Assembly: GCF_016859285.1 (NCBI RefSeq)
Contig: NC_053414.1
Location: 27,672,261 to 27,736,260, forward strand
From: Xiphias gladius
Taxonomy: Eukaryota > Chordata > Actinopteri > Istiophoriformes > Xiphiidae
Reading direction: 5' to 3'
Length of the DNA: 64,000 nt
Shown: piece by piece, positions 21,201 to 54,054 of the stretch
Layout: each line of letters starts with the position of its first letter
Position numbering within the stretch: the stretch's first letter is position 1
Program-made: the position numbers and the translations under genes
Notes under the pieces: model-generated
The model's database searches: none
Told to the model about the DNA's origin: nothing
What the model saw: the letters and a program-made list of their open reading frames with translations, nothing else

Positions 21201-22025
21201 AGTGTCATGCATCGCTTCGGTTCTGGACTGACTGATGTGGTCGGAAAGGATCATTTCTCCTGTGCGCATGTACTTTTCTTGCGCTCTAGGTGGTGGCAGA
21301 GTGGACTTTGAGGACTTTGTGGAACTGATGGGTCCAAAGATGCTTGCTGAGACTGCAGACATGATTGGAGTCAAGGAGCTGAGGGACGCCTTCAAAGAGG
21401 TCTGCATTATTACAATATTACACAGTGCTTTTTTTTTTTTTTTTTTTGCCTCTGGGGGTCCTCTCAATAGCCTCCTTTTTCCTCAACTTTCACTTTAACT
21501 GCAATTCTTTTTCATCTTTTTTCACCCCATCCACTTTGTTTCCCAGTTTGACTCCGATGGCGATGGACAGATCAGCCTCGGGGAACTGAGAGAAGCCATG
21601 AAGAAGCTGATGGGGGAGCAGCTCAACCACAGAGAGATCGACGAGATCCTGCGAGATGTAGACCTCAATGGAGACGGACAGGTGGACTTTGAAGGTGATT
21701 ATTATTATAATACTTCTGGCAAGGAGGCTGAGAACCAAAAAGAGGGAATAAAGCAGAGGGACAGGGGAGAATTTCTGCAAAGAGAGGCACAAGAAAAGGC
21801 TTTGAGGTTGTAGAAGAGTAAATAATACCAATATAATGATTGATTATTTCAGGCATGCGAGAAGTTCCTTGGTAGAAAATGGAACTAATAGGTGGATGTT
21901 CAGGCAAAGCAAAGAAGCAAGAGGAGATTGTTGATTGTTGATTGATTGTTCTTTCCCCAACCAACAATAACAATATCTACGTATCGTTTCTTTCCACAGA
22001 GTTTGTGCGAATGATGTCGCGCTGA
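695..22025 (+). CDS. cabp2: Calcium-binding protein CaBP2-like (EF-hand), two alternative N-termini
   Basis: Gene-level entry. CaBPs are calmodulin-like proteins that modulate voltage-gated Ca2+ channels and other targets in photoreceptors, hair cells and neurons. Isoform 1 joins 14920-14967, 15309-15530, 18362-18392, 20270-20404, 21290-21399, 21547-21694 and 22000-22025 (239 aa). Isoform 2 replaces the first two exons with 695-754 and 1444-1626 (230 aa). All junctions are GT-AG with matching phases. EF1 loop (residues 110-121 of isoform 1), EF3 (184-195) and EF4 (221-232) have canonical acidic positions; EF2 is degenerate (GGRVDFEDF), as known for CaBPs. The C-terminus EEFVRMMSR is the family signature. 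The short EF2 linker (ICGGRVDF, without the NMNL-type insert of CaBP1) and the [14 protein letters not shown] segment favour CaBP2 over CaBP1/4/5. Assignment to the family is secure; the exact paralogue is less so. Confidence 0.85.
1444..1626 (+). CDS. cabp2: cabp2-like isoform 2, second coding exon
   Basis: An open 61-codon exon between a pyrimidine-tract CAG acceptor and a GTAGGA donor, phase 0 at both ends. It encodes a basic, serine/proline-rich stretch ([18 protein letters not shown]...) that ends with [10 protein letters not shown]. The next in-phase exon begins DRNLRPEE. This resembles the CaBP4 junction, where a VFGK sequence meets DRELGPEE (family knowledge from memory). No EF-hand lies here; it is a targeting or regulatory N-terminus. 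Confidence 0.65.
1845..1882. repeat. Perfect 15-bp inverted repeat (hairpin)
   Basis: Arms 1845-1859 and 1868-1882 are exact reverse complements (TTAAATCAAGCAAGA) around an 8-base loop. The right arm ends where the MITE-like element at 1878 begins. Confidence 0.75.
1878..2169. mobile_element. MITE-like element with ~20-bp terminal inverted repeats
   Basis: The left end TTTAAAGGTGCCCTGTGGAG and the reverse complement of the right end (TTTAAAGGTACCCTGTGGAG) differ at one position. About 290 bp, no coding capacity. Both ends contain TTAA, so a TTAA-targeting (piggyBac-like) origin is possible, but this is a guess. Confidence 0.6.
8155..8500 (+). pseudogene. Degraded Tc1/mariner transposase fragment
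   Basis: Translation of the plus strand gives [14 protein letters not shown], a stop, then [16 protein letters not shown] and, after more stops, a C-terminal-like tail. These match the hallmark [11 protein letters not shown] and [11 protein letters not shown] motifs of Tc1-like DDE transposases around the second and third catalytic acidic residues. A start-like [12 protein letters not shown] lies immediately upstream, so most of the N-terminal half appears deleted. Several in-frame stops show it is dead. Confidence 0.75.
9590..9950 (+). repeat. Dispersed repeat, family R1, copy 1
   Basis: Contains the segment AACAATGAGCTCACAGATGC and flanking AAAACAGTAAAGTT, both also found in the copy near 46.1-46.35 kb; diverged relatives lie near 10.2 and 43.1 kb. 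Non-coding. Boundaries are approximate. Confidence 0.55.
12541..12661. mobile_element. Tc1-like terminal repeat remnant
   Basis: Contains GGGGTCCAAGTCTGAGACCA, closely matching GGGGTCCAAAAGTCCGAAAC at 41386, followed by a stretch ending GTAAGGTGTTGGGCCACC. From general knowledge these sequences occur in common teleost Tc1-like elements. A long TG microsatellite follows directly. Confidence 0.45.
12662..12725. repeat. (GT)n microsatellite
   Basis: Uninterrupted GT dinucleotides, about 32 units. Confidence 0.95.
12812..13270. repeat. Probable interspersed repeat
   Basis: The stretch with TAATCAGGTAATCTCATTGA and TTTTTTCAAGAGGGACCTG looks like a widely dispersed teleost element known to me in general form. 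No second copy was identified in this window, so support is weak. Confidence 0.3.
14205..14262. repeat. CT-rich / (TC)n tract
   Basis: Low-complexity pyrimidine tract about 0.7 kb before the alternative first exon of the cabp2-like gene. GA-rich tracts follow at 14434-14470 and 14880-14912. Confidence 0.8.
14920..14967 (+). CDS. cabp2: cabp2-like isoform 1, first coding exon
   Basis: Encodes [16 protein letters not shown] and ends at a GTAAGG donor, phase 0. The MGN start followed by basic residues is the N-myristoylation and membrane-targeting start seen in CaBP1/CaBP2. It lies about 13 kb downstream of the isoform 2 start, so an independent promoter is likely; the purine-rich tract just upstream may belong to its leader. 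Confidence 0.75.
15309..15530 (+). CDS. cabp2: cabp2-like isoform 1, second coding exon ([11 protein letters not shown] exon)
   Basis: A 74-codon exon, phase 0 at both ends, between an AAG acceptor with a good pyrimidine tract and a GTATGT donor. It contains an acidic stretch ([17 protein letters not shown]) and the motif [20 protein letters not shown], equivalent to the GPACIFLR segment shared by long CaBP1, CaBP2 and CaBP5. A CA repeat starts 13 bases after the donor. Confidence 0.85.
15544..15590. repeat. (CA)n tract directly after a splice donor
   Basis: Begins 13 bases downstream of the exon at 15309-15530, slightly interrupted towards its end. Confidence 0.9.
16440..16640. repeat. Dispersed repeat, family R2 (GTTAGCTTAGCTTAGC type)
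   Basis: Contains GCAGCAGCAGGTTAGCTTAA followed by a GACGGGACACAGGGGGAAAC segment. Related copies lie near 34.05, 35.7, 37.37 and 58.5 kb. It sits in an intron of the cabp2-like gene. Boundaries are approximate. Confidence 0.5.
17545..17608. repeat. (TG)n microsatellite
   Basis: Dinucleotide run with a few TA interruptions at its 3' end. Confidence 0.95.
17744..17801. repeat. (GT)n microsatellite
   Basis: Second GT run in the same intron, about 29 units. Confidence 0.95.
18163..18258. repeat. (TG)n tract about 100 bases before a splice acceptor
   Basis: A long TG run ending in TG/TC-interrupted units, roughly 100 bases upstream of the 31-nt exon at 18362 where the two N-terminal cassettes converge. 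Confidence 0.95.
18362..18392 (+). CDS. cabp2: cabp2-like, shared 31-nt exon ([10 protein letters not shown])
   Basis: A tiny exon between CAG and GTACAG, entering in phase 0 and leaving in phase 1. It encodes [10 protein letters not shown] plus one base. The next exon supplies AG to make EELREAF. The same short exon encodes the DRxLRPEEIEE linker in mammalian CaBPs. It is the first exon common to both isoforms. Confidence 0.85.
19149..19174. repeat. (AT)n microsatellite
   Basis: Simple AT run; a CA tract at 19242-19258 follows. Confidence 0.9.
20270..20404 (+). CDS. cabp2: cabp2-like, EF-hand 1 exon
   Basis: Encodes the EF1 helix-loop-helix with loop [12 protein letters not shown], then [21 protein letters not shown], an almost invariant CaBP stretch. 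The loop ends in Asp rather than Glu, as in CaBP1. The donor is T|GTAAGT, phase 1. Confidence 0.93.
21290..21399 (+). CDS. cabp2: cabp2-like, inactive EF-hand 2 exon
   Basis: Encodes [18 protein letters not shown], then [20 protein letters not shown]2 lacks the normal calcium loop, a family trait. The acceptor is CTAG; the donor is GAG|GTCTGC, a weak site. A short extra exon between 20404 and 21290 cannot be excluded, but joining the two gives ICGGRVDF, like CaBP2. Confidence 0.9.
21547..21694 (+). CDS. cabp2: cabp2-like, EF-hand 3 and most of EF-hand 4
   Basis: Loops [12 protein letters not shown] (EF3) and [11 protein letters not shown] (EF4, completed in the next exon) are both canonical Ca2+ sites. 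The exon starts in phase 0 and ends in phase 1 at GTGATT. Confidence 0.93.
22000..22025 (+). CDS. cabp2: cabp2-like, last coding exon
   Basis: Completes EF4 and ends EFVRMMSR followed by TGA (22023-22025), the standard CaBP C-terminus. The acceptor TTTCCACAG is strong. Confidence 0.92.
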
Positions 22026-22867: not shown

Positions 22868-23190
22868 CACATCAATTACTTTTAGTATTATCTTCAGCAT
22901 TGCACTTCTGATAATTCAGCCAATGCAGACAAACCAAATTCTCGCAGATACTTTTTGATAACGATTTGATAACACCAATAGGACGATTTCTGATGTCTCC
23001 TACATATCTGTACACGTCAAGTTTATGTCCATACCTCTGGTTCCCTATAATTAGTTGACAGACTGTCTTAAAGTGCGTGTTTATTATATGCAAAAATATA
23101 TACATTAAATGTTTTATTTGTACAGTGTTCTACGGGTCAGATCTTTTGAAAATGCATTGTAAATAAAAAAGACGAATAACAAACAAACTA
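22026..23190. other. 3' UTR of cabp2-like gene and convergent intergenic space
   Basis: No coding exon seen. An AATAAA at 22604-22609 is a plausible plus-strand polyadenylation signal. A TG/TA microsatellite lies at 22820-22864. The next gene is transcribed towards this region. Confidence 0.6.
22820..22864. repeat. (TG)n(TA)n microsatellite
   Basis: Compound dinucleotide run. Confidence 0.9.
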
Positions 23191-23193
23191 GTT

Positions 23194-23221
23194 TTTATTC
23201 ACCAGATACCCTTTCTTTATT
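23194..23221 (-). terminator. Candidate polyadenylation signals of the B-box/FN3/GTPase gene
   Basis: TTTATT on the plus strand (AATAAA on the minus strand) at 23216-23221 and 23194-23199, about 100-130 bases after the stop codon. Confidence 0.45.
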
Positions 23222-23322: not shown

Positions 23323-25781
23323 TCATATAGCCTTCCAGAGGTTTTCTACCCTCCTGACAAAATGTGTCAGATCACCTCTTTCTTTGCACTTTGAGAGGTC
23401 CCCTATCACTCGCTTTTTCAAAGCATGCACAGTCTCACTGTAGTCAACACTGAAAGGAGCCATCGGTGGAGTCCCATGCCAAACTGGAGGAATGTACCAG
23501 CTGCAAGTGTCTGGTCCAAAATCCATCACATCTGAGATCTTAGTGATGTTGGCCTTCTTCATCCCAGCGTCCTTCCAGATCATTTCATTTAACTTTTCCA
23601 CCAACTGTTTATGTCTCTTCTTCCTCCCTACAACAGGCATGTCAGACATGTTAGCATGTACAAAATAACACAGTGGCTTCTTTTCCACATCCTTCAACCT
23701 TGTGAAAGCATGAAGCACCATCTCTAAGATGGAGTTGTCCCTGGAAACACTGACGATTGTGGCGTCACTGAGCGCCACAGCAAAGCTCGCTACTTCCTTG
23801 TCACGTTCATGGCTGTAATCGCCTTGAACCATCTGATGTGGTTTCAGTCCCTCTGTGTCGATGATCATGATGCAGTCACAGCCCAATTCCTTCCTCACAT
23901 CATTGTTGACACTGATCAGCTGGATGAACGCCCCTCTGGTGCATGTTCCTTTGCTGACGGCAAACCTGACTCCAAACATGGTGTTGAGCAGAGTCGATTT
24001 TCCTGAGTTTTCAGCTCCAATGATTGTAATGACCTTGAGTTTACTGTTGGAATGCAGGATGTAGTGAAGCTCAGTAAGCACATCAGTGGTCCACTTCATC
24101 GGGATGTTTGCTGCATCTCCATCAACAAGCTCAAGAGGGAAACCATCCAGCAGCATCTGAGCATACAGTGCAGGGAGTTGTTCCATGGTTTTTCTTTGAC
24201 TGCTGTATTGTGGCAGGTGACTCGCACAATCATACAGCTGCCCACACTCTCGAAAAAAGTGATCCAGGCGTAAAGAACAAACAGAAATTTGCCTATCAAT
24301 CTCCACAATTTTTTCAGTTTCTTGGGGAGATTTCTGGAGTAGCACTTTGTATCGATCCTGCAGAGATGACAGCTGATCCCGGGACAGATTTTCCAGTTCT
24401 ATTTCAAGCCATTTGAGGAAGTAGTAGCGCTGCACTTCTGAGGTGACTACCCCGTGAAGAAAGCTTGACATTGCAGCTGACACCTCAAATCGTTGCTGCT
24501 TGCTTTTAAGCTCTTTTTCTTTCGCTTTCAAAGACTTGCGGTACTCTTCAGAGTTCACGTTGTCAGCTTTGCGCATTCTCCAGGACTCTGTTTCCAGCCA
24601 CGAAAGTGCTTTCCAGATGTTTCCCTGGTAAGGCAGTTGTTTGTCTTTGAATTCAGAGGTGTTAGTAAGGTGTTTGGTGATTTTGTCCACATTCTTCCAA
24701 GCACTCTGGCATTCTTCACTATCCTCATCAACCAGGATCCCACACCGGCGAGCTCTTTCACCCTGATTTGCCACCGGCACTTTGTTTTCACAGTTTTCTA
24801 GCATCTTAGAGATTGATTCCTGGAGGGCTTTTATCAGCTCCTCGTCAGTCTTTTTCTTCTTGCTTACATTTGTTACCTTTAAACGTGGTTCCTTCGTCAT
24901 CTTTTTGAGTGTAAAGGTTTTCCCCAGTGCGCTGCTAATCAAAATGACATTTGCCTTTACGTCTTTTCCCTCTAGACGCTTGAAGAATTCAGTTTCTGAT
25001 TCATCACAGAAGATGTAAACAGCTGCAGATGTCTGACAGAGGAATGAAAATTGTTCATCAAACACCCTGATGTCTCCTCTGAGGTTCGCAACAGCCAGTG
25101 GCTCAGTGAACTTGTCAATGCTCCTGTTCCCACATGGGAGATACCAGCTGACTTCGACCAGCCCGTCTGAAATCCTCCTGGGGATATCACCACACACCAT
25201 GTTACGATGATAAAATGTGTCATGGTACTCCTGAGTGTTACTAAGCAGTTTGTTCAACATCAGAGACTTGGAAAAGACTGTCCTCCCCAGCCTGACGAAT
25301 GACACCAGAGGGATGTCGGAGTGCACAAGTCTTTCTTCACAGTTTGACTTTCTGAATGCCTGCTGGGAGGGTCTGAAGGCTCTGACAATTTCGCGCATGC
25401 ACCACAGCATCATTGTGATTTCCCTTGTTTCACTGTTGTGCAGCAAGAGAGGGATGGCAAACTGGCAGAGTGCCATTTTCAGAACTATAGCCTGCTGAAG
25501 AAAGCCATCTGAACAGAGAAACAATGCAGTTATCAGGTCCAGGGGATTGATGGGATTGCTCTTTTCTGTGTCCACACTGCAGGACACACATCTGACACTT
25601 CTAGCATTTGCATTCAACATCATGAGTTTCTTCAAAAAGGCCTCAGGGAGTGACTTGGCAGTTTCTGGTTCGTTCTCTGATGTATCAATCTTATTAATCT
25701 CTAGGACAGTGCTAAGTGTGAGCTTGTTGTCATAGTGGTCTTCGAGTCCGATCTTTGACAGCACCTCCCTGAGACACGGCT
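23323..25781 (-). CDS. Large-GTPase exon (URGCP/VLIG-like core and G domain)
   Basis: A single long open exon of 2,459 nt, entered in phase 1 from the second FN3 exon (ATIHT|E PCLREVL). The N-terminal part has VLIG/URGCP landmarks: LSKIGLEDHYDNKLTLSTVL, AFLKKLMMLNANARSVRC, DLITALFLCSDGFLQQAI and SFVRLGRTVFSKSLMLNKLL. The G domain has P-loop GAENSGKSTLLNTMFG (codons from 24018), a CTRGAF switch-like region, DTEGL (from 23859) and YFVHANMSD as the likely base-recognition strand. It ends RRVENLWKAI and stop, exactly where VLIG proteins continue into a long helical C-terminus. A truncated or compact family member; no frameshift or internal stop is seen. Confidence 0.92.
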
Positions 25782-26553
25782 CTGTGAATCAACAAGAGAC
25801 CGATGAATTTACAAGATGTTAAATTTTGCTCTTTACCAGGGTATCTATGCAGCTCAGCTAGATCAACTCACTCATCATGGGAAGTATTACTCATCCTGTC
25901 AAAACGTATAATGCAGTATATAATATAATGTTTTCTGTGGCTCTGAGAGGCTTTGTAAAATCAGACAAATTACATCAGGGTTATCTTGATTTATCCTTTT
26001 TTTTAATCTGGATTCTTTAATATTTAGCATCTACTGATAGTGGCTCTGAACTGATGTTTCTTTTGTGGCATTGTTATTTATTTTAAGCCTAGCTAGTAGC
26101 ATGGCTCCAAGGGTGGCAATGTCATTCTGTCGGTCGATCTTTCTGTCAGTCTTTTAGTTTCACGAAAAGATGCATTGGCTACTGCTACAACATCTACTGC
26201 AACTTTGTACAGACATTCATGGTTCTACCCTGATGTATCTTAATGACTTTGGTGGTCCCCTGACTTTTCCTCTAGTGCCACCATGAAGTTCACATTTGTG
26301 GTTTTGACTGAGATGTCTCAACAACTTTGCCACATGTGCTACAGACATTTATATCCACCTAAGGAAGAACTAAAATAAGGTTCAGTGACCCCTTGATTTT
26401 TCATCTAGTGCCATCAGTACCTTATTCAAGTCAAAATATTAACTGGTCCGAAACTTTGGTTTATACCCAAATAACTGCAACTATAACTGCAAAAAAGGCA
26501 CCAGTATAAGTAAGGATTGTTTGTCAAATGGTCAAACAGGTTTTACCCCCCCC

Positions 26554-26585
<32 letters not shown>

Positions 26586-29500
26586 CACATCTTTCCAATG
26601 TCAGAATTAAATCCAACAGTTTCTGTAGTTTTGTGAAACCAACAGTCTGACATTCCTATCCCTAATTCAGCACAGTGATTGGCCAGCGGTGTGGAAGTGA
26701 GAAAGCAAGCAGGGTTTGAACTTCTCTCTCAAGCTCTCTTTTTTTCATTCTTTACACAACCATTTTATCTTTACATCTGTATGCAACCCTATGAATGCCT
26801 TTCAGAAGAGACTGTCTGAAAATGTGCACCTTCATCTCCATATTTTTTTAAACGACCACTGCATATTCCCCCTTTTTATAACAACTGGCTTTCCACCACC
26901 ATGTCTGCCTTCTTACATGGTCAGACAGCATGCTGTATGAACTCGTTCTTTTCTAGCATAATTCAGCCCTTCAACCTACTTAACATCAGCATGTTAGCAT
27001 TGTACTTCTGAGCATGTTAGAATGCTGAGGGTAGCCTTTAGCTGAAAGCATGGCTCCCTCAAAGAGCCGCTAGCACTAGTCTTGTTTACTAATACAGCTG
27101 GGCGTTGTGAGGACAACCTCTAAAAGTTTCCAGCGTGAACATAATAGTTTCAGCCAACAAGACCATTTTAGAGTTAACCTGCAAAATACTGCAGAAAAAG
27201 ACGCAAAACACAGAGGTGGGGGGAGGGTGTGCTCCAGTAGGTAGGAGAGGGTCCTTTCAGGTGTTTGTGGTGAGGGACCTATTGTCTCAACTTTTCCTTG
27301 GTAGGATCAAGCATTTCCTAAGATGGACTTTATGCAAGTTCAGTACTAATTTACATTATCTCTCTCTCTCTCTCTCTCCCTCTACTGAATTCACTTCTCA
27401 TACATACTTTCCTATAATGTAAAGTTTATTTTTATATACAATATAAATATATTTGAAACTAATATATTTTGAATATAAATATATATAGTATTTGTATATA
27501 TGATTTGAAAAGCCACTATGGTGCAGTATGACTGACATTTTATGAGTTTTAAACAAGCAGGAGAAATAACTACTCACCTGTGTGTATAGTGGCAGAGACC
27601 GGCCGACTGCACCGACCGTTCAGCACCGTTGAGACAGAGACAATGTACTCTGTGTCTGGCTCTAAATCTGAGAATATCTTGTAGCAGTCCTCGGTGTGTA
27701 TTGCTAACGGCTCTTTCCCTGGACTTGTGACAGTTATAAGGAACTGATGAGGAATTCCATCCATGCTGTCTCCTTTGGTCCATTTCAAGGACATAGCAGT
27801 GGCCTCTGAATGTCCTTTTGTTAAGTTTCGAGGGGGCGGCACCGCTGCAAGACAGTAGTCATTTGAATTAAAAATTATTTTCTTTGCTCAATAAAATGTG
27901 AACACACTGCAGTGATAGGAATATGAAATGTCTTGTCATGTCTGATATTACCTGTGAAAATAGATGCCGTGGTCCATTCACTTAAATTGCCATCCTCATC
28001 TTCTGTGGCCACACTGAAGTAATACCGTTGTCCAAGTTGGAGGTTGTTTATTTCAATTTTATGAAGATCTTTGATCACCAAGTAACCTTCCACCTTCATA
28101 AGGGAGCTCCACCTCACTTGGAAGCTCTTAGGCCCCTCCAGGCCTTCCGGGCAACCCCAGCTCAGGACCAGAGAGTTTGGCCTCACTGACAGGAACTTGA
28201 TCTTACCAGGGGGGGGCACCACTTGCAAACATAAGACAGCAAAAAAAATCATTTGTGCCAATTGTACAGTCAGCTTAGATCTAATAACCAAGAATGATCA
28301 TGTTGAGAAACACTTTTTTTATACATCATAAATTGTTCTACAGACTCAGCTCTCCCTGGCTTCACTACATGCTCCTTCTGGCAAATCCACACTTTGAAAA
28401 TTAATCCAATTAATTTCTCAGAATTAATGTTTTGGGCTTGTGTGTCTGTTTGATGTCAGTAGAAATAATTCACTCCGAAGACAGTTTTGGAAATGGTTGT
28501 TTTGTGAACCCATTTACAGTGAAACTACAGTCTGTGTTAAATGCTACAACTGACAATGAATCCTTGGAAACTCGTTTGGCGGTTCAGTCCAAGTCTGTAA
28601 GCCTGGATATGTAGAAATACGCTGTGAATAATATCAAGATAGATTGATTGTGAGATAAATACATACATAATATCAACAGCACACCATATCCTACAACACC
28701 ATAGAACACTATTATAGCCCAGCCATTTCAGACAAAACGCTTTCTACCTTTAGCCTAAAAAAATATATATCCTCAAAGACAGACTTCATTGTTTCCTTAT
28801 TGGTCTGCTTTGTTTTGGCAATATATTTGGCACTTCACTTCAACAGCAGACTAAATGATCCAGATTTAAATTAAGTGAGAGGAAACTTTCTGCAACCCTC
28901 TACACAAAATTCTACAGTTTTTTCTTTTTTTTTCCAGATGTAGTGTATGCTTTATCAAATGGAGAATTTCTGTATTGCATTTAAAGCCAGCCAATTAGGA
29001 TCTTGAGTTTTTACTCACCTGTATCAGGTAGATCAGGGTCCTGGTTTTCTTCCCCAGCAGATGTCTATAATAGAATAGTATTGATAAGCATTGTGGAGCA
29101 CATTAGTTCTACAAGATACAGTTTCAGATTTTCACCTGACTTGCAGCACGCTGTGCCCTCTGCGAGATGACGTCGTGTCCTCTGTGATTTCCCTGTGCAC
29201 AAATGCTGCAGATGTGCATCTGGTCGGTCCTGCACAAGAATTCTAGAGACTTTTGAAAGTGCAGACAGCGCTTCACCTCGACTTCGGCACACACGTCTCT
29301 GAGTATGTGTCTCTGCAGGGTTTCCACCGTGTAGTGCTGCCGGACATCATACTCACAGTAGGAAGTGTTACAGGTCAGGCAAGTCTTCACGGCTGCACCC
29401 TGGCGGCAGATGTCACAGATTACCTCCTCCTCTCTGTTTTCAAATAGAGAAATAAGGTACAGCTGTTAGTTACCACTTGAAGTAATAATAGGAAGGTATG

Positions 29501-32500
29501 CTATGTGTGCTATGTGTTAGCCTGGCTCTATATAAGGATGTTTGGAGGAATAGCCTGGAGTTTCTGATAGCTAAAGAAGGCCATCTACTGAAACATTTTT
29601 AATGAGACTTCTTAATACTCTGTAGACAGGCTTTGTTTATGATGTGGGGAAAGTGGCTATTATAAGTCACTACAATCAACTTTTCCTATAAATGATACAA
29701 ATTAAGCATTACCTTTCTACTAATGGAACCCAATGTTCAATATTAAATACATAAAAAATACACCGTGAAATAAATATGAGTAGACTGTGTAAATATAAAT
29801 CAACAATTTGTGAAAGAATTGAAGTAATTATTAAAAGTCAACTCATAAATATAAAATATCATTTTTCATAATGACTAAATTATATTGGATATCTTTTTTT
29901 GATTTTATTAGAGATTTTTATTCCAAAATGCTTTTTTTCATAAGTCTTTTTTTTATTTCCTAATGGCATTTTTCCAGTTACCCTTTTCTTTCATGTCAAG
30001 TCATATTTCATAATGTCGCTTTTCATAATTACACATTTTATTTCATGTTACTCTGTTACCTAATGCCACTTTTAATTTCATAATGTTATTTTTACTTACG
30101 TCTCATGACAGTGGTGTCACCTTTCTGCCTCTTGAGCTAGCAGGTGCAACAAATGCTACCAAACACGCCCCAGGAACAGCGCTGGGCTTTCGAAGCGGTT
30201 TTAGCGTAGCGGCTAAAAAGGGTATGATGAAAGGAATGACTTTTTGAATATTCCGAATTTGATCCAGTCAGTCAAATATCATGGAAAGTCTAGAGGAGCA
30301 ATATTTTATCCCATTCATGCGTGTTCTCTGAGGAAGATTCAAAGCACAGCGGATGTAACTCTTACATAACCAGCTAACAGCTGCTGCCTTTGATACTGTC
30401 TCTTTACTTTGATGCTGAGTGATAAACCAACCTCACAACCCTGTTATAACCCACTGTTATTTATTAAAATAATAATAATAATATTTAAAATATTGTTGAT
30501 TAATTGTTTATTCCATAATTATCTATGTATTTACTTGATATCGAACACTTTGGGGCACCTTATCTGCTGAAGAATTAACATAGCTTGGGCTAAGAGTTGA
30601 CAAGCAAAGTATGTGTTATTAACTTGGAACGTGGAGTTTGGAGAAGAAGGTGATTAGCATTCAGGGAGGGTCTAACTAAGAGTCAGGACAGCTTAGCCTC
30701 TCCTGCATCAGTTTGAATCAGTTTTTAGGGAAGTGCAGTACTTAGTTGCTGGAGTACCCCTTCAAGTGTATATTAATGTGGTGAATTTAAAGAGTGCCTC
30801 ACATATCATCACATGAAACTGTCTCCTCGTCATATTGGGAATCCCTTGATCCAAAAGTCTTAGTCGATGAATAATCAGATGTGTCCGATGAGAATGGGGA
30901 TTCGGCTGTCCCTGGATTGTCCTGACTGGGAATTAGAAAAAGGAGTTATAAATAGAAAAAGGACATGTTATTATTTACTCCAGCATTATTAGGAAACTGT
31001 GATTAGAAGCTATAGGAAGTTACTCTAATGTCACCATAAGGTAACTTGGGAGGATTTCAGTGTCTTGGTGTATCTTTCAAAATTCGACATATTTTTGTTT
31101 TACTGAGGATGCAAATCCATGCCCCAAATAGTCCTTTGTTACTCCACACTGGATCTCAGACTGTTCACTTTTGCCCTTAAAGTCATGACAACGTACAGTA
31201 TGTATTACATCATTTATTTTCAGATTATAAACGAGTGAATAAAAATGAAATCTGTTATCAAATGAGATTGCGCTGGCTGTTGGAACATCCTTTAGATCAC
31301 TTCAGAGACAATGTCTAAATAATCAATCATTTCTGAAGCATTCAGTCATTTTTATTACAGTGTAGAACAAACAATTAGCTTACTGTATATAACAATATTA
31401 CATATAGTCTGGCTACTTACTGTTTGTCTTGTCTGAAGTCATCGGCATCATTTGAAACACTGGACATGTCAGTCACATATACAGAAGATGTAGAAGCTTT
31501 GAGCTTCATCCTGATAATTAGACAAGAACAATTTGTAATTTCAGAAATTACAAAAATTTCAGTTACCTAATGCAGCTCTTAATCTTTGTCTTCCAATCAG
31601 CTAATTCCTCTAAAATGTGCAGTTCTTATTATGAAATGATTTACAAAATAAAGTGTATGATCGTTTTCTGCAGTCCCTGTCTGTTTCCCTGTGTTACTCT
31701 ACTACAGTGTATGTTTTCTTTCACCTCCCTGCAGTTTACCAGCACACCAGGAGGACAGACAGTATGTGACTTTGTAAAAGTGTGAGAACAAATTGTTTAT
31801 AGGAAAACACGACCAATAATAATGGGCAATGCACTTGACGATGTCACCAAAGTTGCTTAATTGTATCAAAGAGAAAAAAAATGTGTTGTATATATATAAC
31901 TAATTAATACACTGCTTTTCCAATACCAGCACATTAATTACTAAAGTAATGTGATCGTGTTATGACAAATGTCACAAGTGTGATTTTTACCTGCTCTGCA
32001 CAAAGTCATCAGGGGCTCTTTGATTAGCTGTTAGAACTGGATACACAGCAAATGGAGGGTATTTTGCTGCTTTGCAAATCACATGTCCACCCCAAGGTTT
32101 GGGCATCCCATATGGTAGTTGTCTGAAAGGAAAAAAAATCACTAAAGTTTACAATATCATTTTTTTCAAAGTTTCCAAGAGGGTCCATTGTGTTGACAAG
32201 TAGAATACTGCAGTACCTAATCTTTAGAGGTGCGGGTTACTTTAGAGAGATAACCTTTGTCTCAAACCACGCACAGACACTGATGGCCATGTTTGTAAAA
32301 GTATTACGTGGTCTTCAGTCCTCAGATGCAAAAATGCTGGGTGTAAATTTTCATGCAAACATTTGAATACAAATAAGTGGGAAACACTGTGCAACAGAGA
32401 ATCAAATGAAAACTGCTGGAATAGAAATAAAGCTAAGTTGTCTTAAAGTAAAAAGTCTGTCTTACTTTTTAACGTCATAATCAAGAGGGCTGTCCTTTGA

Positions 32501-35500
32501 AGACAAGTCTGTCTCATAGGCAGAATAGTCACAATCTGGTCTCTCCCTCCTGAAAGAATGAGCAGATCAGCTGACATTTCACCAAATCCCTTCCCCGAAC
32601 AGTGGCTGTCATAGCTTGAAACTACAGTAATCAGCCACAACATTAAAACCAGTTTCTGGGTTTTAATGTTGAGGCTGAATGGGGTATACTGTATATATGT
32701 GTATACATGTATATGTATATAATGATAATAATAATAATTATTATTATTATTATTATATATTTCTAATACCTTTATGTGAAATCAAGGATCCAGTGTTTCA
32801 AAAATTATTCAGAATTTCACGTGGTAAATCTACCTTGTTAACAGCAGGTCCAGCAACAGTAGTAAAGGGTGGCAAGGGTTAGAGAATGGTCAAAACCTGC
32901 CTGACAAAACTACAAACTGACTTTATACGTATCAATGAAAAACACTGTTTAGTTTACGCTTAATTTCTTTCTGTATTACAGTTGTGCTAATACTCATGTC
33001 TTTAGGTCTGTCTCCAAAGCTGCGCGATACGTCTATAGTATATATAGTATAACAAAAGCCTCTTTAACAGCATAACTAAGTCTGGCTTCCTACTGATAAA
33101 TTTTATAGGTTATCCTTTGATACATCAGACACATCTGCTGTATATCCAGAGAATGTAGAAGGCTTGATCTTCAACCTTAAAATTACATAAGAATGTAAAT
33201 GTAAATTCTCTTCTCTGATATTATATTCATATTTTGGATTTATTTTACTGTTTGTGACAATTACTGCGTATGGAAAGTAAATGAAGGTTTGTTGTTGAAA
33301 GCTTTTGAAGGCAGAAGTTGACCACCAAAGTCTAAAAGTTTTAAAAAAAAACTGTCTTACTGATTTTTCCTGAAGTGGAGTGGGATATCTTTGGAAGACT
33401 TTTCTGATGCGCATGAAGAATATGTAGACCCTGGTATCTTTTCACTGGAAAAACAGAAAATATATATTTAATTTAACAGAGGGCAAAAATGTCAAATTAA
33501 TGATAACAGAATAAAATATTCAGGAAACCTTTTCTCAGAAGTGGCCTCTTATTTCATTTCTTTGTGGTTGTGTTTAAACCACTGTCATGTCCCCTAACCC
33601 CTACAAAGGTTCTCAGTTTTCTTTCTCAAAGGGAGAAACACACATAGGTCTATGTAACTCCACCTAAGCTGATACACATTCACTTCACATGGAAAGAAGA
33701 GTGAAGAGTGTGATAACAAATCACCACAGCAAACACAATTTTTTTGTTTATCATACAAAACGAATGCTACATCAGAATGTAAATGAATGAAGCATGCATC
33801 ATATCTCACTATTCTTCTCTAAAATGAAGGGGGGTGTCCTTTGATGACTTCTCTGTCTCACAAACAGCATATGTAGCCCGTGGGATCTTCACACTGCAAA
33901 AATATGAAGCTTTCTTTTAACAGATAAGAAAGTGCAGTGTGTGAGTTGGCTTTTATGAAGAGTAAAAATATGAAGTGTGGTTTATTAAACTTTATCTGCC
34001 ATGTAAAATGTAAAAGTTTGACATTTTATATCTACTGTATACTTATTTGCTTTCTTGCCTAGAGTTAAATGAAACGAGTGCTATCACTCTCATATCTGTA
34101 TGCTAGACATGAGTCTACAGCCAGGAGGCGGTTAGCTTAGCTTAGCACAAAACAACTAGCCTGTTAGCGTCATTTTTCCACTAATGGATTAAACAAGCGA
34201 GATATGACCTGTTAAATTGTGAGCTGCAAATTTTGTTTCCTTCAGACAGAGCTAGGCTAGCTGTTTCCACCTGTTTCCAGTCTTTGTGCTATGATAAGCT
34301 GGCTGTTGACGATAGCTTTACATTTAGCACACAGACATGAAATTGGTACAAATTCTGTCATCTAACTCTCAGCAACAAAGCAAATCAGCATATTTCTGGC
34401 AAGTAAAAGTCATGCATTAAAACTTTTTTCTTGAGCAAAAGTAAATCATTTGAGTTTTAATTGACTCTGACAGAATGTTTACAGATCACAGCGTGTCTCA
34501 TATTATTAATGTCATCTTACGGTTTGTCCTTAAAAGCAAGAGGGAATTCAATGGACTGTTCAGACTTGGCGCTCAAACATCCACTGGACGTTGACTGTGG
34601 TATCTTCAACCTGAAATTCATTCATTTTGCAGTTTAGTGAATGTTTTAATAGCAATTATTTTCCCTTCTAATTGATATGAACATTTAGTCACATGATTAG
34701 AAATTGTCCTCATCAAAAGCAACCTTTATTTGGAATATAATACTTTTTCAAATGCACCTTTTTTTGAAAGGAATGCCCCTGTTCATGTCTTTCCGAGTTT
34801 TTCACTCATTATCAACTTTCTTATTTCTTAATCAGGTAAATCAGGTAAATCTTTACATGAAGAGTTGGTACACCCTGCTGTTCCATGATAAACATTATAA
34901 ATATTTTATTGATATTTTGCAATTTTATATTGTTTTTGTCTATTACTGGGTTTTTAAACTAAATGAAGGCTTGTTGAACTCGACTAACAAAGCACAAAGT
35001 AAAAAGAAAAAAAACTGTCTTACTGATTTTTCCTGAAGTGGAGTGGGATATATTTAGAAGACTTTTCTGATGCGCATGAAGAATATGTAGACTCTGGTGT
35101 CTTTTCACTGGAAAAACAGAAAATGCATATTTAATTTAACAGAGGGCAAAAATGTCAAATTAATGATAACAGAATAAAATATTCAGGAAACCTTTTCTCA
35201 GAAGTGGCCTCTTATTTCATTTCTTTGTGGTTGTGTTTAAACCACTGTCATGTCCCCTAACCCCTACAAAGGTTCTCAGTTTTCTTTCTCAAAGGGAGAA
35301 ACACACATAGGTCTATGTAACTCCACCTAAGCTGATACACATTCACTTCACATGGAAAGAAGAGTGAAGAGTGTGATAACAAATCACCACAGCAAACACA
35401 ATTTTTTTGTTTATCATACAAAACGAATGCTACATCAGAATGTAAATGAATGAAGCATGCATCATATCTCACTATTCTTCTCTAAAATGAAGGGGGATGT

Positions 35501-38140
35501 CCTTTGATGACTTCTCTGTCTCACAAACAGCATATGTAGCCCCCGGGATCTTCACACTGCAAAAATATGAAGCTTTCTTTTAACAGATAAGAAAGTGCAG
35601 TGTGTGAGTTGGCTTTTATGAAGAGTAAAAATATGAAGTGTGGTTTATTAAACTTTATCTGCCATGTAAAATGTAAAAGTTTGACATTTTATATCTACTG
35701 TATACTTATTTGCTTTCTTGCCTAGAGTTAAATGAAACGAGTGCTACCACTCTCATATCTGTATGCTAGACATGAATCTACAGCCAGGAGGCGGTTAGCT
35801 TAGCTTAGCACAAAACAACTAGCCTGTTAGAGTCGTTTTTCCACTAATGGATTAAACAAGCGAGATATGACCTGTTAAATTGTGAGCTGCACATTTTGTT
35901 TCCTTCAGACAGAGCTAGGCTAGCTGTTTCCACCTGTTTCCAGTCTTTGTGCTATGATTAGCTGGCTGTTGACGATAGCTTTACATTTAGCACACAGACA
36001 TGAAATTGGTACAAATTCTGTCATCTAACACTCAGCAACAAAGCAAATCAGCATATTTCTGGCAAGTAAAAGTCTTGCATTAAAACTTTTTTCTTGAGCA
36101 AAAGTAAATCATTTGAGTTTTAATTGACTCTGACAGAATGTTTACAGATCACAGCGTGTCTCATATTATTAATGTCATCTTACGGTTTGTCCTTAAAAGC
36201 AAGAGGGAATTCAATGGACTGTTCAGACTTGGCGCTCAAACATCCACTGGACGTTGACCGTGGTATCTTCAATCTGAAATTCATTCATTTTGCAGTTTAG
36301 TGAATGTTTTAATAGCAATTATTTTCCCTTCTAATTGATATGAACATTTAGTCACATGATTAGAAATTGTCCTCATCAAAAGCAACCTTTATTTGGAATA
36401 TAATACTTTTTCAAATGCACCTTTTTTTGAAAGGAATGCCCCTGTTCATGTCTTTCCGAGTTTTTCACTCATTATCAACTTTCTTATTTCTTAATCAGGT
36501 AAATCAGGTAAATCTTTACATGAAGAGTTGGTACACCCTGCTGTTCCATGATAAACATTATAAATATTTTATTGATATTTTGCAATTTTATATTGTTTTT
36601 GTCTATTACTGGGTTTTTAAAACTAAATGAAGGCTTGTTGAACTCGACTAACAAAGCACAAAGTAAAAAGAAAAAAAACTGTCTTACTGATTTTTCCTGA
36701 AGTGGAGTGGGATATCTTTGGAAGACTTTTCTGATGCGCATGAAGAATATGTAGACCCTGGTATCTTTTCACTGGAAAAACAGAAAATATATATTTAATT
36801 TAACAGAGGGCAAAAATGTCAAATTAATGATAACAGAATAAAATATTCAGGAAACCTTTTCTCAGAAGTGGCCTCTTATTTCATTTCTTTGTGGTTGTGT
36901 TTAAACCACTGTCATGTCCCCTAACCCCTACAAAGGTTCTCAGTTTTCTTTCTCAAAGGGAGAAACACACATAGGTCTATGTAACTCCACCTAAGCTGAT
37001 ACACATTCACTTCACATGGAAAGAAGAGTGAAGAGTGTGATAACAAATCACCACAGCAAACACAATTTTTTTGTTTATCATACAAAACGAATGCTACATC
37101 AGAATGTAAATGAATGAAGCATGCATCATATCTCACTATTCTTCTCTAAAATGAAGGGGGATGTCCTTTGATGACTTCTCTGTCTCACAAACAGCATATG
37201 TAGCCCGTGGGATCTTCACACTGCAAAAATATGAAGCTTTCTTTTAACAGATAAGAAAGTGCAGTGTGTGAGTTGGCTTTTATGAAGAGTAAAAATATGA
37301 AGTGTGGTTTATTAAACTTTATCTGCCATGTAAAATGTAAAAGTTTGACATTTTATATCTACTGTATACTTATTTGCTTTCTTGCCTAGAGTTAAATGAA
37401 ACGAGTGCTATCACTCTCATATCTGTATGCTAGACATGAGTCTACAGCCAGGAGGCGGTTAGCTTAGCTTAGCACAAAACAACTAGCCTGTTAGCGTCAT
37501 TTTTCCACTAATGGATTAAACAAGCGAGATATGACCTGTTAAATTGTGAGCTGCACATTTTGTTTCCTTCAGACAGAGCTAGGCTAGCTGTTTCCACCTG
37601 TTTCCAGTCTTTGTGCTATGATAAGCTGGCTGTTGACGATAGCTTTACATTTAGCACACAGACATGAAATTGGTACAAATTCTGTCATCTAACTCTCAGC
37701 AACAAAGCAAATCAGCATATTTCTGGCAAGTAAAAGTCATGCATTAAAACTTTTTTCTTGAGCAAAAGTAAATCATTTGAGTTTTAATTGACTCTGACAG
37801 AATGTTTACAGATCACAGCGTGTCTCATATTATTAATGTCATCTTACGGTTTGTCCTTAAAAGCAAGAGGGAATTCAATGGACTGTTCAGACTTGGCGCT
37901 CAAACATCCACTGGACGTTGACTGTGGTATCTTCAACCTGAAATTCATTCATTTTGCAGTTTAGTGAATGTTTTAATAGCAATATCTGGAATGCCCCTGT
38001 TCATGTCTTTGCAAGTTTTGCACTCATTATCAACGTTCTTATTTCTTAATCAGGTAAATCAGGTAAATCTTTACATATCATTTGAAATATGCTGGAAGAG
38101 CTTCTTACCTTTTGCCCTTGTCCTTTGAGCTAGCAGACAT
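23323..38140 (-). CDS. B-box / fibronectin III / URGCP-VLIG-type large GTPase
   Basis: Gene-level entry, 18 coding exons, predicted 1,524 aa. Order on the minus strand: 38140-38109, 37937-37848, 37220-37137, 36771-36688, 36273-36184, 35556-35473, 35107-35024, 34610-34521, 33893-33810, 33444-33361, 32549-32466, 32122-31991, 31510-31421, 30925-30803, 29433-29136, 29064-29019, 28221-27952, 27844-27578, 25781-23323 (the first carries the start; 19 segments including it). Every junction is GT-AG and phases match throughout. Domains: repeat region (residues ~11-295), linker, double B-box (~418-505), FN3 (~527-616 and ~617-705), URGCP/VLIG core with G domain (~706-1524). The P-loop GAENSGKS is near residue 1294 and DTEGL near 1347. 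URGCP/VLIG relatives are interferon-linked large GTPases. The function of this fusion is unknown; an innate-immune role is inferred from its parts. Very confident of a real gene, less of exact ends. Confidence 0.85.
26090..27090. repeat. Interspersed repeat in a GTPase-gene intron
   Basis: Contains phrases typical of a widespread teleost element (TGGTGGTCCCCTGACTTTTC with CTCTAGTGCCACCA, then CATCAGCATGTTAGCATTGT and AGCTGAAAGCATGGCTCC). Identification is from general familiarity; the limits are approximate. A CA microsatellite lies at 26563-26590. Confidence 0.4.
27578..27844 (-). CDS. Second fibronectin type III exon
   Basis: Starts VPPPRNLTKG, contains AMSLKWTKGDSMDGIP and ends with LEPDTEYIVSVSTVLN and PVSATIHT. 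The W in strand B, the L-x-P-x-T-x-Y strand E/F motif and the Y-V-S-V strand are typical FN3 features. Phase 1 in and out, 267 nt, so the domain is one symmetrical exon. Confidence 0.9.
27952..28221 (-). CDS. First fibronectin type III exon
   Basis: Starts VPPPGKIKFLSVRPNSLVLS, with W in LSWGCPEG, QVRWSSL, LQLGQRYYFSVATEDEDG and SEWTTASIFT. It is a complete FN3 fold in one phase 1-1 exon of 270 nt and parallels the next exon, so the pair probably arose by exon duplication long ago. Confidence 0.9.
29019..29064 (-). CDS. 46-nt linker exon between B-box and FN3
   Basis: Encodes TSAGEENQDPDLPDT plus one base, an acidic linker. Acceptor TATTATAG, donor CAG|GTGAGT. It links the phase-0 end of the B-box exon to the phase-1 start of the FN3 exon, which is the main argument for it. 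Confidence 0.8.
29136..29433 (-). CDS. Double B-box zinc-finger exon
   Basis: Encodes EEEVICDICRQGAAVKTCLT followed by CNTSYCEYDVRQHY (B-box 1-like Cys/His spacing), then RCLHFQKSLEFLCRTDQMHI and CSICAQGNHRGHDV (B-box 2-like). This is the arrangement of fish TRIM proteins, but no RING exon is found upstream; the N-terminus is instead the repeat region. B-boxes mediate oligomerisation and protein contact. Phase 2 in, 0 out. Confidence 0.88.
30803..30925 (-). CDS. Serine/aspartate-rich linker exon
   Basis: Encodes QDNPGTAESPFSSDTSDYSS and then an acidic tail ending VSCDD. 123 nt, phase 2-2. Disordered and possibly phosphorylated. The AT|GTGAGG donor splices to the B-box exon. Confidence 0.75.
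31421..31510 (-). CDS. Repeat-type exon F
   Basis: 90 nt, phase 2-2, encoding MKLKASTSSVYVTDMSSVSN and DADDFRQDK. It is related to the KIPxSTxS repeat exons upstream and more closely to the decayed exon at 33103-33175. Confidence 0.8.
31991..32122 (-). CDS. Unique exon E (proline/aromatic-rich)
   Basis: 132 nt, phase 2-2, encoding QLPYGMPKPWGGHVICKAAK, then YPPFAVYPVLTANQRAPDDF. Not like the repeats and not recognised. Flanked by a strong TTTCAG acceptor and an AG|GTAAAA donor. Confidence 0.75.
32466..32549 (-). CDS. Repeat-type exon D
   Basis: 84 nt, phase 2-2, encoding RERPDCDYSAYETDLSSKDS and PLDYDVK. It keeps the SSKDxPL core of the A and C repeat exons and the same length, so it is a diverged member of the repeat set. 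Confidence 0.8.
32627..32700. repeat. Short palindromic element, copy 1
   Basis: AATCAGCCACAACATTAAAA is followed by a near inverted copy (GGTTTTAATGTTGAGGCTGA). The same element occurs at 60256-60306. Probably a miniature transposon remnant. Confidence 0.6.
33103..33175 (-). pseudogene. Decayed repeat exon
   Basis: After a weak TTTTAAG acceptor the phase-2 frame reads LKIKPSTFSGYTADVSDVSK and DNL, then a TAA stop with no nearby donor. It clearly resembles exon F (MKLKASTSSVYVTDMSSVS). Either a dead exon copy or an alternative last exon that would truncate the protein before the B-box. Confidence 0.65.
33361..33444 (-). CDS. Repeat exon A, copy 1
   Basis: 84 nt, 28 codons with split codons, phase 2-2. 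Encodes EKIPGSTYSSCASEKSSKDI and PLHFRKN. Confidence 0.85.
33810..33893 (-). CDS. Repeat exon C, copy 1
   Basis: 84 nt, phase 2-2. Encodes VKIPRATYAVCETEKSSKDT and PLHFREE. The donor is ATA|GTGAGA. Confidence 0.85.
34020..34320. repeat. Dispersed repeat R2 inside unit 1
   Basis: Contains GAGGCGGTTAGCTTAGCTTA, and TTTCCACCTGTTTCCAGTCT. Matching copies sit at the same place in units 2 (35685-35985) and 3 (37345-37650), with relatives at 16.5 and 58.5 kb. Confidence 0.7.
34521..34610 (-). CDS. Repeat exon B, copy 1
   Basis: 90 nt, phase 2-2. Encodes LKIPQSTSSGCLSAKSEQSI and EFPLAFKDK. Confidence 0.85.
35024..35107 (-). CDS. Repeat exon A, copy 2
   Basis: Encodes EKTPESTYSSCASEKSSKYI and PLHFRKN; three substitutions against copy 1, frame kept. 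Confidence 0.85.
35473..35556 (-). CDS. Repeat exon C, copy 2
   Basis: Encodes VKIPGATYAVCETEKSSKDI and PLHFREE; frame and splice sites kept. Confidence 0.85.
36184..36273 (-). CDS. Repeat exon B, copy 2
   Basis: Encodes LKIPRSTSSGCLSAKSEQSI and EFPLAFKDK; 90 nt, frame kept. Confidence 0.85.
36688..36771 (-). CDS. Repeat exon A, copy 3
   Basis: Encodes the same EKIPGSTYSSCASEKSSKDI core as copy 1; frame and splice sites kept. Confidence 0.85.
37137..37220 (-). CDS. Repeat exon C, copy 3
   Basis: Encodes VKIPRATYAVCETEKSSKDI and PLHFREE; frame and splice sites kept. Confidence 0.85.
37848..37937 (-). CDS. Repeat exon B, copy 3
   Basis: First repeat exon after the start exon. Its first base completes the AG|G codon, giving GKR-LKIPQSTSS. 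Confidence 0.85.
38109..38140 (-). CDS. Start exon of the B-box/FN3/GTPase gene
   Basis: Encodes MSASSKDKGK plus two bases before AG|GTAAGA. This ATG (G at -3) is chosen because it alone gives the phase-2 exit needed by exon B. An upstream ATG at 38160 lies in another frame (weak context) and would stop early in exon B. The exon begins at 38190 after a TTTCAG acceptor, so a non-coding first exon is expected upstream. Confidence 0.75.
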
Positions 38141-38879
38141 CTCTGATAATTCTTTGACATGGAATTTAGACAAGACTCTTCACATTCACACTGAAACGTG
38201 TTAAAAGAGTGAAATTACTCTGCTGATCTGACAGTGCACTTATTTTTAATGTCCAATTGTCTGTCTTACTGTATGCGCAAAGTACAGAGCTGAAGTGCAA
38301 GACAATCTGCTGATCAAGATTCAGCTGACTCTAAGATGAGCTAAATACAGTGTATACAATCAACTGAAAAGATTAACAGAAATATATGAATTACAAGTAG
38401 TATGAATTTCTATTGAGACACTTGAAGGTCAAAAAGAAATTATGGATTCTTACTCATCATCCTACTTTAAAGAATCCAACCTGCAGTTACATTTACAAGC
38501 CAGTTATCAAGTATCAAAAACTAAAATTTGTTTCAATGTGCAATGCCAAGAGTGTTATGCCAGACTCAGCAACAACCATTTAAGGCCAAAGATCCAGGCA
38601 AGTGTGATAGCAGGTTATTAATTAATAATTGGGTAATGTTCTTCAATCATGCCTTTGCCTGGAAATGTTCAACCACTTCCGGATTTATAACACTAAATGG
38701 TGACTTTATGTTGCCTAGTTGAACACATACTTTATAGAAAAAAGCTAATTTGAACAACTTTATATATATTCGGATGGTTTATTGTGTAATGTTGCATCAT
38801 TATTTGTTTCATAAAATCTGAATCTGTAAATGAACCCGTAACTATATTGTAAAAAGCACAATACTTACCACTGCAATGC

Positions 38880-41450: not shown

Positions 41451-42984
41451 TTCTTAAATTGACATAGACATGCATGTTAAAAATGGAATAATTCCCTTTC
41501 CACTCAGGCCCAGAATAACAGAGACACAGAGCAGATGGGGTCCAAGCTCTGAGGAGCCACAGACACATGTAGGATTTAAGAAAGAGTGAGGAAATGATAG
41601 CTAAGAAAACTGACAAATAGATCCATCTATGATCTTGAGATAAAGTAGTTAATTTAATTAACTGTATAAAAACACTTTCCTGCTGTAAATGAACCTTAGC
41701 TAAAAAAAAAAAAAGACCAAAAGATAGTTAGTATTTCTACCATGGTTTTAATTATTTTCAGAGTATTTGGGGCACCTATTGTTTATGTTACATCGAAACT
41801 GAAAAGGTCAAGATTAAACATGATTAAATATCCTTTTTGTTTGGCTCTCCGTTAAAAGGTTAAGGTAAACCTGATGACCCTTCAGAGCCACAGAAGCCAT
41901 CATACAACTGTTTTCACAAGACAGTGACAAGTAAACCGAGCTTTATGTGTAAATTCAGTGGAGTGCTGCTTCAACAAAATAACATTTGCTCCTCAGACAT
42001 GGTCTTCCTTACATTTAAAGGCAGCTGTTGGCACTCAGCAATCTGCAGACTTGATGTGGGCGAGTGTTCATTTTGAATAAAGTGTTTTTAATAAACTACT
42101 GTGCACATCAGGTGAAAGATTTGATTAAGTCGGTCCAAAATCCTCTTGGATAAGGAGGAAGATAAACGAAGGAACATCTACAGCAGAGAGAAAGAGAGAG
42201 ATGAGAACACACTCTATGGCAAATGCGAAGGCGGTCTGGAGAGGAATGAGTAGGATCTCTGGCTATGGGACTGCCAGGCCAAATGGTGGAGGAGATTCAG
42301 GCAACAATGAAACACAGTCATCTTCTTGTAACATTATATACTTTTTTGTTGTTTAAGGTTGTTGATGGTTATCCTCTCAAGAACAGTGTGGGTAGAATTT
42401 TGATGCTGTGATAAATGCAGGTCAGAGCAGCTTTCTCAACAGTACGCCCCACCAAAACAACCCCTTTTAACAGCATAGTATCTCCCAGAGAGCACTGTTG
42501 TTAGATTTAACAAGGCTCTGAAATGTAGCCATCTACTGCTGGAAACATTAGCATTGTAGAGTGTAGGTATTGGTACAAAAGTCAGCCCACTAGGTAATGA
42601 GATGACAGGTTGTTAACACCAGGAGTTTCAGAATGGTAAATACTGTGCATCCAACATGGAATGTGCAGCACAAGACCCTTCTTCAGATGTAATGTGGATA
42701 CACCTTAACTCTTCCTTCATCTGGCCTCCATCCTGCTTCTTCTTTTCATTGATGGCGCCAGCTCCTCAGCACATACCTGTATCTCACACTTCCATCATTT
42801 CTTTCACTGCTTTCATTGCTGACATTGCTCTTTTATTTACCATGCTCTTTATATGAGTTGAGATTAGTTGAAGTAAATTAGCTTAAAGCTGCAGTCATTG
42901 ATTGATTGATTGATTGATTTTCCACGTGGGGGCAGCAGCACATCTGAAATTAATGACCTTATAAATGTTATGAAATTGTTATGA

Positions 42985-53677: not shown

Positions 53678-54054
53678 CTAGCTGTCTTGTACATCCAGGA
53701 ACTGGATGTACTGGTGATGGCGGACTCTGTAGAAAATTCTTTCCAGTAAGGAACACCTTGCACCAGGTGTGGCGTATCCATTGGTGACTCCCACACAGCG
53801 GAAACCCAGACGCTGGTAGAGCCGGTGGGCACCCGGTGTGTACGCCGTGGTTCCCAGCACAACAGAGGAGTATCTGTGAGTGGCAGCAAATTCCAGAACT
53901 TTCCGTCCCAGCGCAACCCCGACTCCACACTGCCGACAGCACCGGTCAACAGACATCCGCTGCAACTCGACAGCACCTCCTGACTTCTGCTGGCTGACTG
54001 CTGCTACGACACCCACCACTTTGCCTTCAACCACTGCTACCCACAGGCAGGAGT
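53678..54054 (-). CDS. nat8l-like: NAT8L-like gene, GNAT-domain exon
   Basis: Acceptor after a pyrimidine-rich CCTCAG; starts by completing D129 and reads SCLWVAVVEGKVVGVVAAVS. R169-x-x-G-x-G174 is the pyrophosphate-binding loop of acetyl-CoA. Ends YIQFLDVQDS, stop at 53680-53678. Confidence 0.92.

Follow-up and report, generated by a model that had tools for sequence, protein, structure and literature searches.

Can one gene join a repeat N-terminus, a double B-box, two FN3 domains and a URGCP/VLIG-type GTPase, and if so, to which family does its product belong? The question is raised by a locus of the swordfish Xiphias gladius, which lies on the minus strand at 38140..23323 of a 64,000-nucleotide window (contig NC_053414.1, positions 27,672,261 to 27,736,260); the window is the whole stretch of DNA that was analysed, all coordinates below refer to it, and all parts of the gene are on its minus strand. 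The reading that we favour, at a probability of roughly 0.6, is that of a self-assembling URGCP/GVIN GTPase of the GBP/atlastin fold class with an exon-shuffled front end of NLR and TRIM type. Its last exon encodes a URGCP domain together with a large GTPase that falls in the GBP/atlastin class, and its front zone looks as if it had been built by shuffling of phase 2-2 repeat exons, a TRIM-type B-box pair and phase 1-1 FN3 exons.

Gene structure and domain order

An independent reconstruction gave 19 coding segments with consistent phases and 1,524 codons followed by a stop, in exact agreement with the first-pass annotation, which had claimed 19 phase-consistent segments and a 1,524-codon open frame. 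All 18 introns begin with GT and end with AG; the acceptors read CAG in 16 cases, TAG in one and AAG in one, the last preceding the first FN3 exon, and the intron phases are 2 for the first fourteen introns, followed by 0, 1, 1 and 1. The frame used is free of stops up to its final codon. At least one alternative frame carries a stop in each of the 19 segments, and in the last exon the alternative frames hold 43 and 60 stops. An 18-segment model was dropped after a phase-constrained scan had located one more phase 2-2 exon, at 32549-32466; scores obtained with the 18-segment protein are marked as such below.

A swordfish protein in the database, P0001 ("up-regulator of cell proliferation-like [Xiphias gladius]", 1,293 amino acids), matches the window protein with 1,292 of its residues in three blocks and is identical to it over the 705 columns from URGCP to GTPase. 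As read from the matched blocks, P0001 uses 11 of the 19 segments, namely exon 1, cassette 1 and the first exon of cassette 2 of the repeat zone described below, the exons beginning at 31510 and 30925, the B-box exon, both FN3 exons and the GTPase exon. It skips the seven segments from 35556 to 31991 and the linker at 29064, and the donor of its B-box exon lies slightly earlier than in the window model. To judge from the two sequences, the difference in exons may reflect alternative use of in-phase repeat exons. Repeats, B-boxes, FN3 domains and GTPase are thus already joined in P0001.

The same arrangement recurs widely in fishes. Among 81 database matches, 79 fit the URGCP or GTPase profile, and 45 of these 79 combine B-box, FN3 and GTPase, in that order in every one of the 45 and with a URGCP domain in 44. 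The 45 span percomorphs, Centroberyx, salmonids, Esox, Umbra and Megalops; in Amia, FN3 and GTPase were matched and a B-box was not. The number of FN3 copies across the 45 runs from 1 to 10 and is two in 31 of them. Long FN3 arrays were observed in salmonid and Umbra members (10, 9 and 7 copies in P0004, P0013 and P0020). In a tree, a branch with support 100 splits percomorphs and Centroberyx (29 rows, window included) from the other 48 rows. Since rows with B-box and FN3 stand on both sides of this branch, we infer that the combination probably predates this split.

Several observations weigh against so simple a picture. P0001 is itself a prediction; 20 of the 79 family matches have FN3 without a B-box match, and 14 have no FN3, of which 13 also lack a B-box (P0048 has one). 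Furthermore, in nine of the 45 (Megalops included) the B-box match is partial, covering fewer than 70 of about 100 residues, and the tree needs 20 or more changes to account for the B-box label. This patchiness could stem from incomplete gene models or from repeated loss of the front end.

It might also be argued that the locus holds two adjoining genes, one TRIM/FN3-like and one URGCP, wrongly fused by the first-pass annotation and by gene predictors. The joining of the exons is indeed read from genomic sequence and gene predictions, and the matches predicted without FN3, most of them also without a B-box, would suit such a fusion. However, the identical order in 45 of 79 matches from many genera, the joining of B-box, FN3 and GTPase exons in P0001 and the fact that all exon joins are in phase make this explanation very improbable. 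The claim of one gene is therefore upheld by P0001, which joins the window's exons, and by the order kept in the 45 proteins, whereas a single swordfish mRNA is what we infer from them.

Other claims of the first-pass annotation fared as follows. Pfam recognised the B-box, FN3, URGCP and URGCP-type GTPase domains that it had named, and the order that it had described was found unchanged in the 45 database proteins, percomorphs included. It had regarded this order as undescribed, which agrees with our literature searches (titles and abstract openings), as these yielded no paper describing an architecture of repeats, B-box, FN3 and GTPase; yet the order is already present in databases under an uninformative similarity name. 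Its repeat N-terminus was likewise confirmed, although it had not noticed that one repeat type is a fish NLR repeat.

Coding exon 1 (38109..38140, MSASSKDKGKR) has the same starting residues as P0001. Upstream of this start, the DNA at 38132-38190 resembles a percomorph coding exon, reading VNVKSLV and then LSKFHVKELSEMSA in another frame (best E 0.067). Because the frame in this stretch seems to be broken by a small indel, translation in swordfish probably starts later than in its relatives. On the 3' side of the stop codon, a motif scan found four AATAAA/ATTAAA hexamers at 23080..23221.

The GTPase exon

The last exon (23323..25781) is a single exon of 2,459 nucleotides that encodes, by Pfam and a predicted structural model, a URGCP domain (amino acids 783-1074), a helical stretch, a URGCP_GTPase domain (1102-1487) and the stop. 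Both profiles are matched completely, URGCP (PF25496) with 339 bits over positions 1-299 of 299 and URGCP_GTPase (PF25683) with 451 bits over positions 1-396 of 396. A truncated GTPase was considered and rejected, since the Pfam GTPase profile is matched through its last position. The G1 motif GAENSGKST is found at amino acid 1294 and the G3 motif DTEGL at 1347.

The fold class is taken from the predicted model. Its structural comparison with GBP1 and GBP2 gives a likeness at the level of the fold, with 13-16% identity, and the GBP N-terminal domain (PF02263) stays below its cut-off (18.4 versus 21.1 bits, 18-segment protein). A putative first large-GTPase region is modelled as alternating strands and helices; structural matches are almost confined to the second G domain, in match lists that leave room for other families. 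Among 17 rows (window plus 16 chosen matches), the B-boxes have a mean pairwise identity of 63%, the FN3 domains of 68% and 70.5%, URGCP of 74% and the GTPase of 71%; the linker between URGCP and GTPase has 64.5% (16 rows).

On the favoured reading, GTP binding and hydrolysis would drive formation of a dimer and then of a coat or scaffold, after the manner of GBP1 and GVIN1. The B-boxes may contribute self-association, which is known for B-boxes from TRIM lattices, and the FN3 pair may act as a spacer or as an arm that binds targets. The NLR-type repeats would form a flexible docking tail for partners also used by fish NLRs. The first-pass suggestion of a self-assembling immune GTPase is consistent with the fold class and with published work on GVIN1, but the function itself is put forward here as a proposal. 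It must also be held against it that the human and salmon proteins that have been studied are relatives of the window protein and not the window protein itself.

The database names would instead make this protein a growth regulator, an "up-regulator of cell proliferation" without an immune role. We consider this a poor prospect, as those names were assigned by similarity, and the repeats and B-boxes resemble immune families. Two studies of relatives also argue against it. In salmon TO cells, VLIG-1 showed the top fold increase among the antiviral genes in response to type I interferon and virus (PMC4337061), and one exon of a trout GVIN1 gene differs between bacterial-disease-resistant and susceptible lines (PMC8321248). 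The window contains 11 candidate matches to the interferon-response element motif GAAANNGAAA versus 5.7 expected, a count reached by 4 of 100 shuffles; the match at 41795 lies 3.65 kb upstream of the start. If the favoured reading is correct, proteins filed under a growth-regulator name would be modular immune-type GTPases in which the number of repeats and FN3 domains can be changed by whole in-phase exons.

Front modules and the fish NLR repeat

The double B-box is encoded by one exon (29136..29433, phase 2 in and 0 out), as judged by Pfam and ortholog alignment. The zf-B_box profile scores 28.8 bits on the 19-segment protein (cut-off 24.1), and the first B-box taken alone stays below its cut-off (ANCHR-like, 19.4 versus 27 bits, 18-segment protein). 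The B-box pair of the ortholog P0003 aligns to the B-box1-B-box2 chain of MID1 (2jun, E 1.4e-9) and to TRIM25 (E 1.3e-8). Some features fit a TRIM-type pair less well: conservation of the early His of B-box 2 stays below 90%, one B-box 1 position is mostly Asp, with His or another residue in some rows, and no RING family was matched in Pfam scans of the window protein. Between the B-boxes and the FN3 domains lies a short linker exon (29019..29064, phase 0 in and 1 out), which is missing from P0001. The two FN3 domains follow on phase 1-1 exons of their own (27952..28221 and 27578..27844; Pfam and ortholog model), and the fn3 profile scores 52.9 bits on the window protein in two stretches.

Ahead of the B-boxes, a three-exon cassette is present three times with a spacing of about 1,663 bases. 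Cassette 1 (36688..37937) has exons 37937-37848, 37220-37137 and 36771-36688; cassette 2 (35024..36273), with exons 36273-36184, 35556-35473 and 35107-35024, is 99.0% identical to it over 1,663 aligned bases; and cassette 3 (33361..34610) has exons 34610-34521, 33893-33810 and 33444-33361. Cassettes 1 and 3 share 1,198 of their first 1,200 aligned positions and diverge beyond these, cassette 3 being unlike the others past its exons. Nine exonic differences separate the copies. Judged from one sequence, these near-identical cassettes may be true copies or an effect of assembly. The nine cassette exons and the repeat-like exon found by the phase-constrained scan (32466..32549, ...RPDCDYSAYETDLSSKDSPLDYDVK) are all phase 2-2 exons of 84 or 90 bases, with 28-30 residues each.

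Three further exons complete the zone: exon QLPYGMPKPWGGH... (31991..32122), which has a similar stretch in several percomorph matches and is absent from P0001; exon MKLKASTSSVYVTDMSS... (31421..31510), repeat-like by eye and used in P0001; and a Ser-rich exon of the gene model (30803..30925), also used in P0001. A decayed repeat-like exon was observed outside the gene model at 33106-33175, where an AAG acceptor is followed by LKIKPSTFSGYTADVSDVSKDNL and then a stop; this stretch resembles exon 31510-31421, its match to P0001 being 52% over 21 residues with an E of 0.84. The repeats also gave a Pfam match of GyrI-like type at 32.1 bits (cut-off 26), which probably reflects chance resemblance in repeated sequence; no single stretch of it passes E 0.001.

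The link to NLRs came through the Umbra member P0013. A search with its repeats, among proteins 0.55 to 1.75 times its length, retrieved 62 proteins. Besides P0013 itself and a relative from Umbra, these were 60 proteins whose domain listings include FISNA and NACHT. A hidden Markov model (HMM) was built from 95 distinct repeat units, drawn from 43 of these 60 NLR matches. This NLR-repeat HMM scored 54.5 bits on the window protein's N-terminus, against 9.8 for the best of 1,000 shuffles (581 scored), and 19.3 bits on the first repeat type, which none of 2,000 shuffles reached. It also scored at least 15 bits in 31 of 62 family N-termini searched, these without a shuffle control.

Other results speak against an NLR origin for the whole zone. 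The third and second repeat types score weakly (4.8 bits, reached by 14 of 2,000 shuffles, and 1.7 bits, reached by 56 of 2,000), and the exons at 32549, 32122 and 31510 gave no NLR-repeat HMM match, their scores being reached by 227, 1,208 and 1,408 of 2,000 shuffles. In addition, when the repeat zone of the window itself served as the query (E of 10 or less, 6,638 candidates), five family members and zero NLRs were retrieved, and the link therefore rests on the P0013 repeats and the HMM test. We nevertheless conclude, at the level of sequence, that one repeat type of the window protein is of the kind that fish NLRs carry at their N-terminus. We know of no function for these repeats. Zebrafish has nearly 400 described NLR genes, and a motif of about 30 residues was stated in 2016 to be exclusive to this NLR type (PMC4852459); the motif now extends to a GTPase family, which is the part likely to surprise specialists.

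Further modules are found on both sides. The salmonid members P0042 and P0046 carry B-box, FN3, URGCP and GTPase behind an N-terminal pyrin domain (51.8 and 51.9 bits), and the N-termini of both score as NLR repeats. A module scan covered six of the 60 NLR matches, five of them chosen for a listed RING or pyrin: P0083, P0087 and P0108 have a RING ahead of FISNA-NACHT, and P0100 and P0121 have a pyrin domain ahead of NACHT, where the pyrin match of P0085 is below cut-off. The RING of the three NLRs is a possible counterpart to the B-boxes of the GTPase family. It thus looks as if one stock of small modules serves both fish NLRs and these GTPases. The presence of an NLR repeat type on an unrelated GTPase, together with pyrin in two salmonid relatives, points to the repeats as a functional module that can pass from one protein to another, and a common repeat offers a route to a partner, namely whatever binds the repeats of both NLRs and GTPases.

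The protein might accordingly be a GTP-driven counterpart of fish NLRs, in which the repeats, and pyrin in some salmonids, recruit NLR signalling partners, so that signalling would take precedence over the coating of microbes. Against this, no death-fold family was matched by Pfam in the window protein, we know of no binding partner of NLR-type repeats, and the window repeats have drifted from the NLR consensus. The shared repeat type, the pyrin of P0042 and P0046, the pyrin or RING ahead of NACHT in the scanned NLRs and the similar gene layout, with small modules on single exons and the nucleotide-binding part on one large exon (PMC4852459), speak for it; on balance we find it unlikely, though worth keeping in mind beside the self-assembling GTPase that we favour. 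In a broader and equally tentative proposal, fish VLIG-type GTPases of this clade would be a GTP-driven sister system of fish NLRs, with a single interchangeable set of front modules (NLR repeats, pyrin, TRIM-type zinc fingers) shuffled onto two unrelated nucleotide switches, NACHT and the large GTPase, both of which would feed common downstream complexes.

Neighbouring features and comparison with known systems

Next to the GTPase gene, the plus strand carries EF-hand reading frames at 20206-21810 (Pfam EF-hand at 21499-21810), which we take to be CaBP-like. A Lectin_C match just over its cut-off (23 bits) was observed at 46396-47692, beside a long minus-strand frame matching coiled-coil families, and a GNAT acetyltransferase reading frame at 53681-54130 on the minus strand.

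The closest counterparts of the window protein are P0001 and its orthologs, which represent the same locus with the same kinds of parts, although the repeat zone of P0001 is shorter and its linker exon is missing. TRIM proteins (MID1, TRIM25 and the fish bloodthirsty-related proteins) have tandem B-boxes like those of the window protein, and MID1 also carries FN3. In contrast to TRIM proteins, the window protein gave no RING or PRY/SPRY match in Pfam and has a GTPase instead; the sole TRIM-type match in the family search was P0067, a bloodthirsty-related protein. We know of no B-box, FN3 or URGCP domain in RNF112.

To judge by family name and by the domains of its fish relatives, human GVIN1/VLIG-1, an interferon-inducible giant GTPase, has a GTPase of the same kind, and to our knowledge it has neither B-box nor FN3. 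The window protein stops 37 residues past its GTPase domain, whereas long fish VLIGs continue for hundreds. Human GVIN1 has been modelled with two large GTPase domains and coats a cytosolic bacterium, and GBP1, which like GBP2 has its large GTPase fold in common with the window protein, dimerises when bound to GTP, polymerises and forms coats (PMC11974893). In fish NLRs (NLR-B30.2/NLR-C), too, single exons code for N-terminal repeats of about 30 residues, and the nucleotide-binding part sits on one large exon (PMC4852459). They combine FISNA-NACHT, usually with LRR and B30.2, whereas the window protein has a GTPase and gave no FISNA-NACHT match in Pfam. The features tested place the gene, by its sequence, with neither the TRIM proteins nor the NLRs but in the URGCP/GVIN family.
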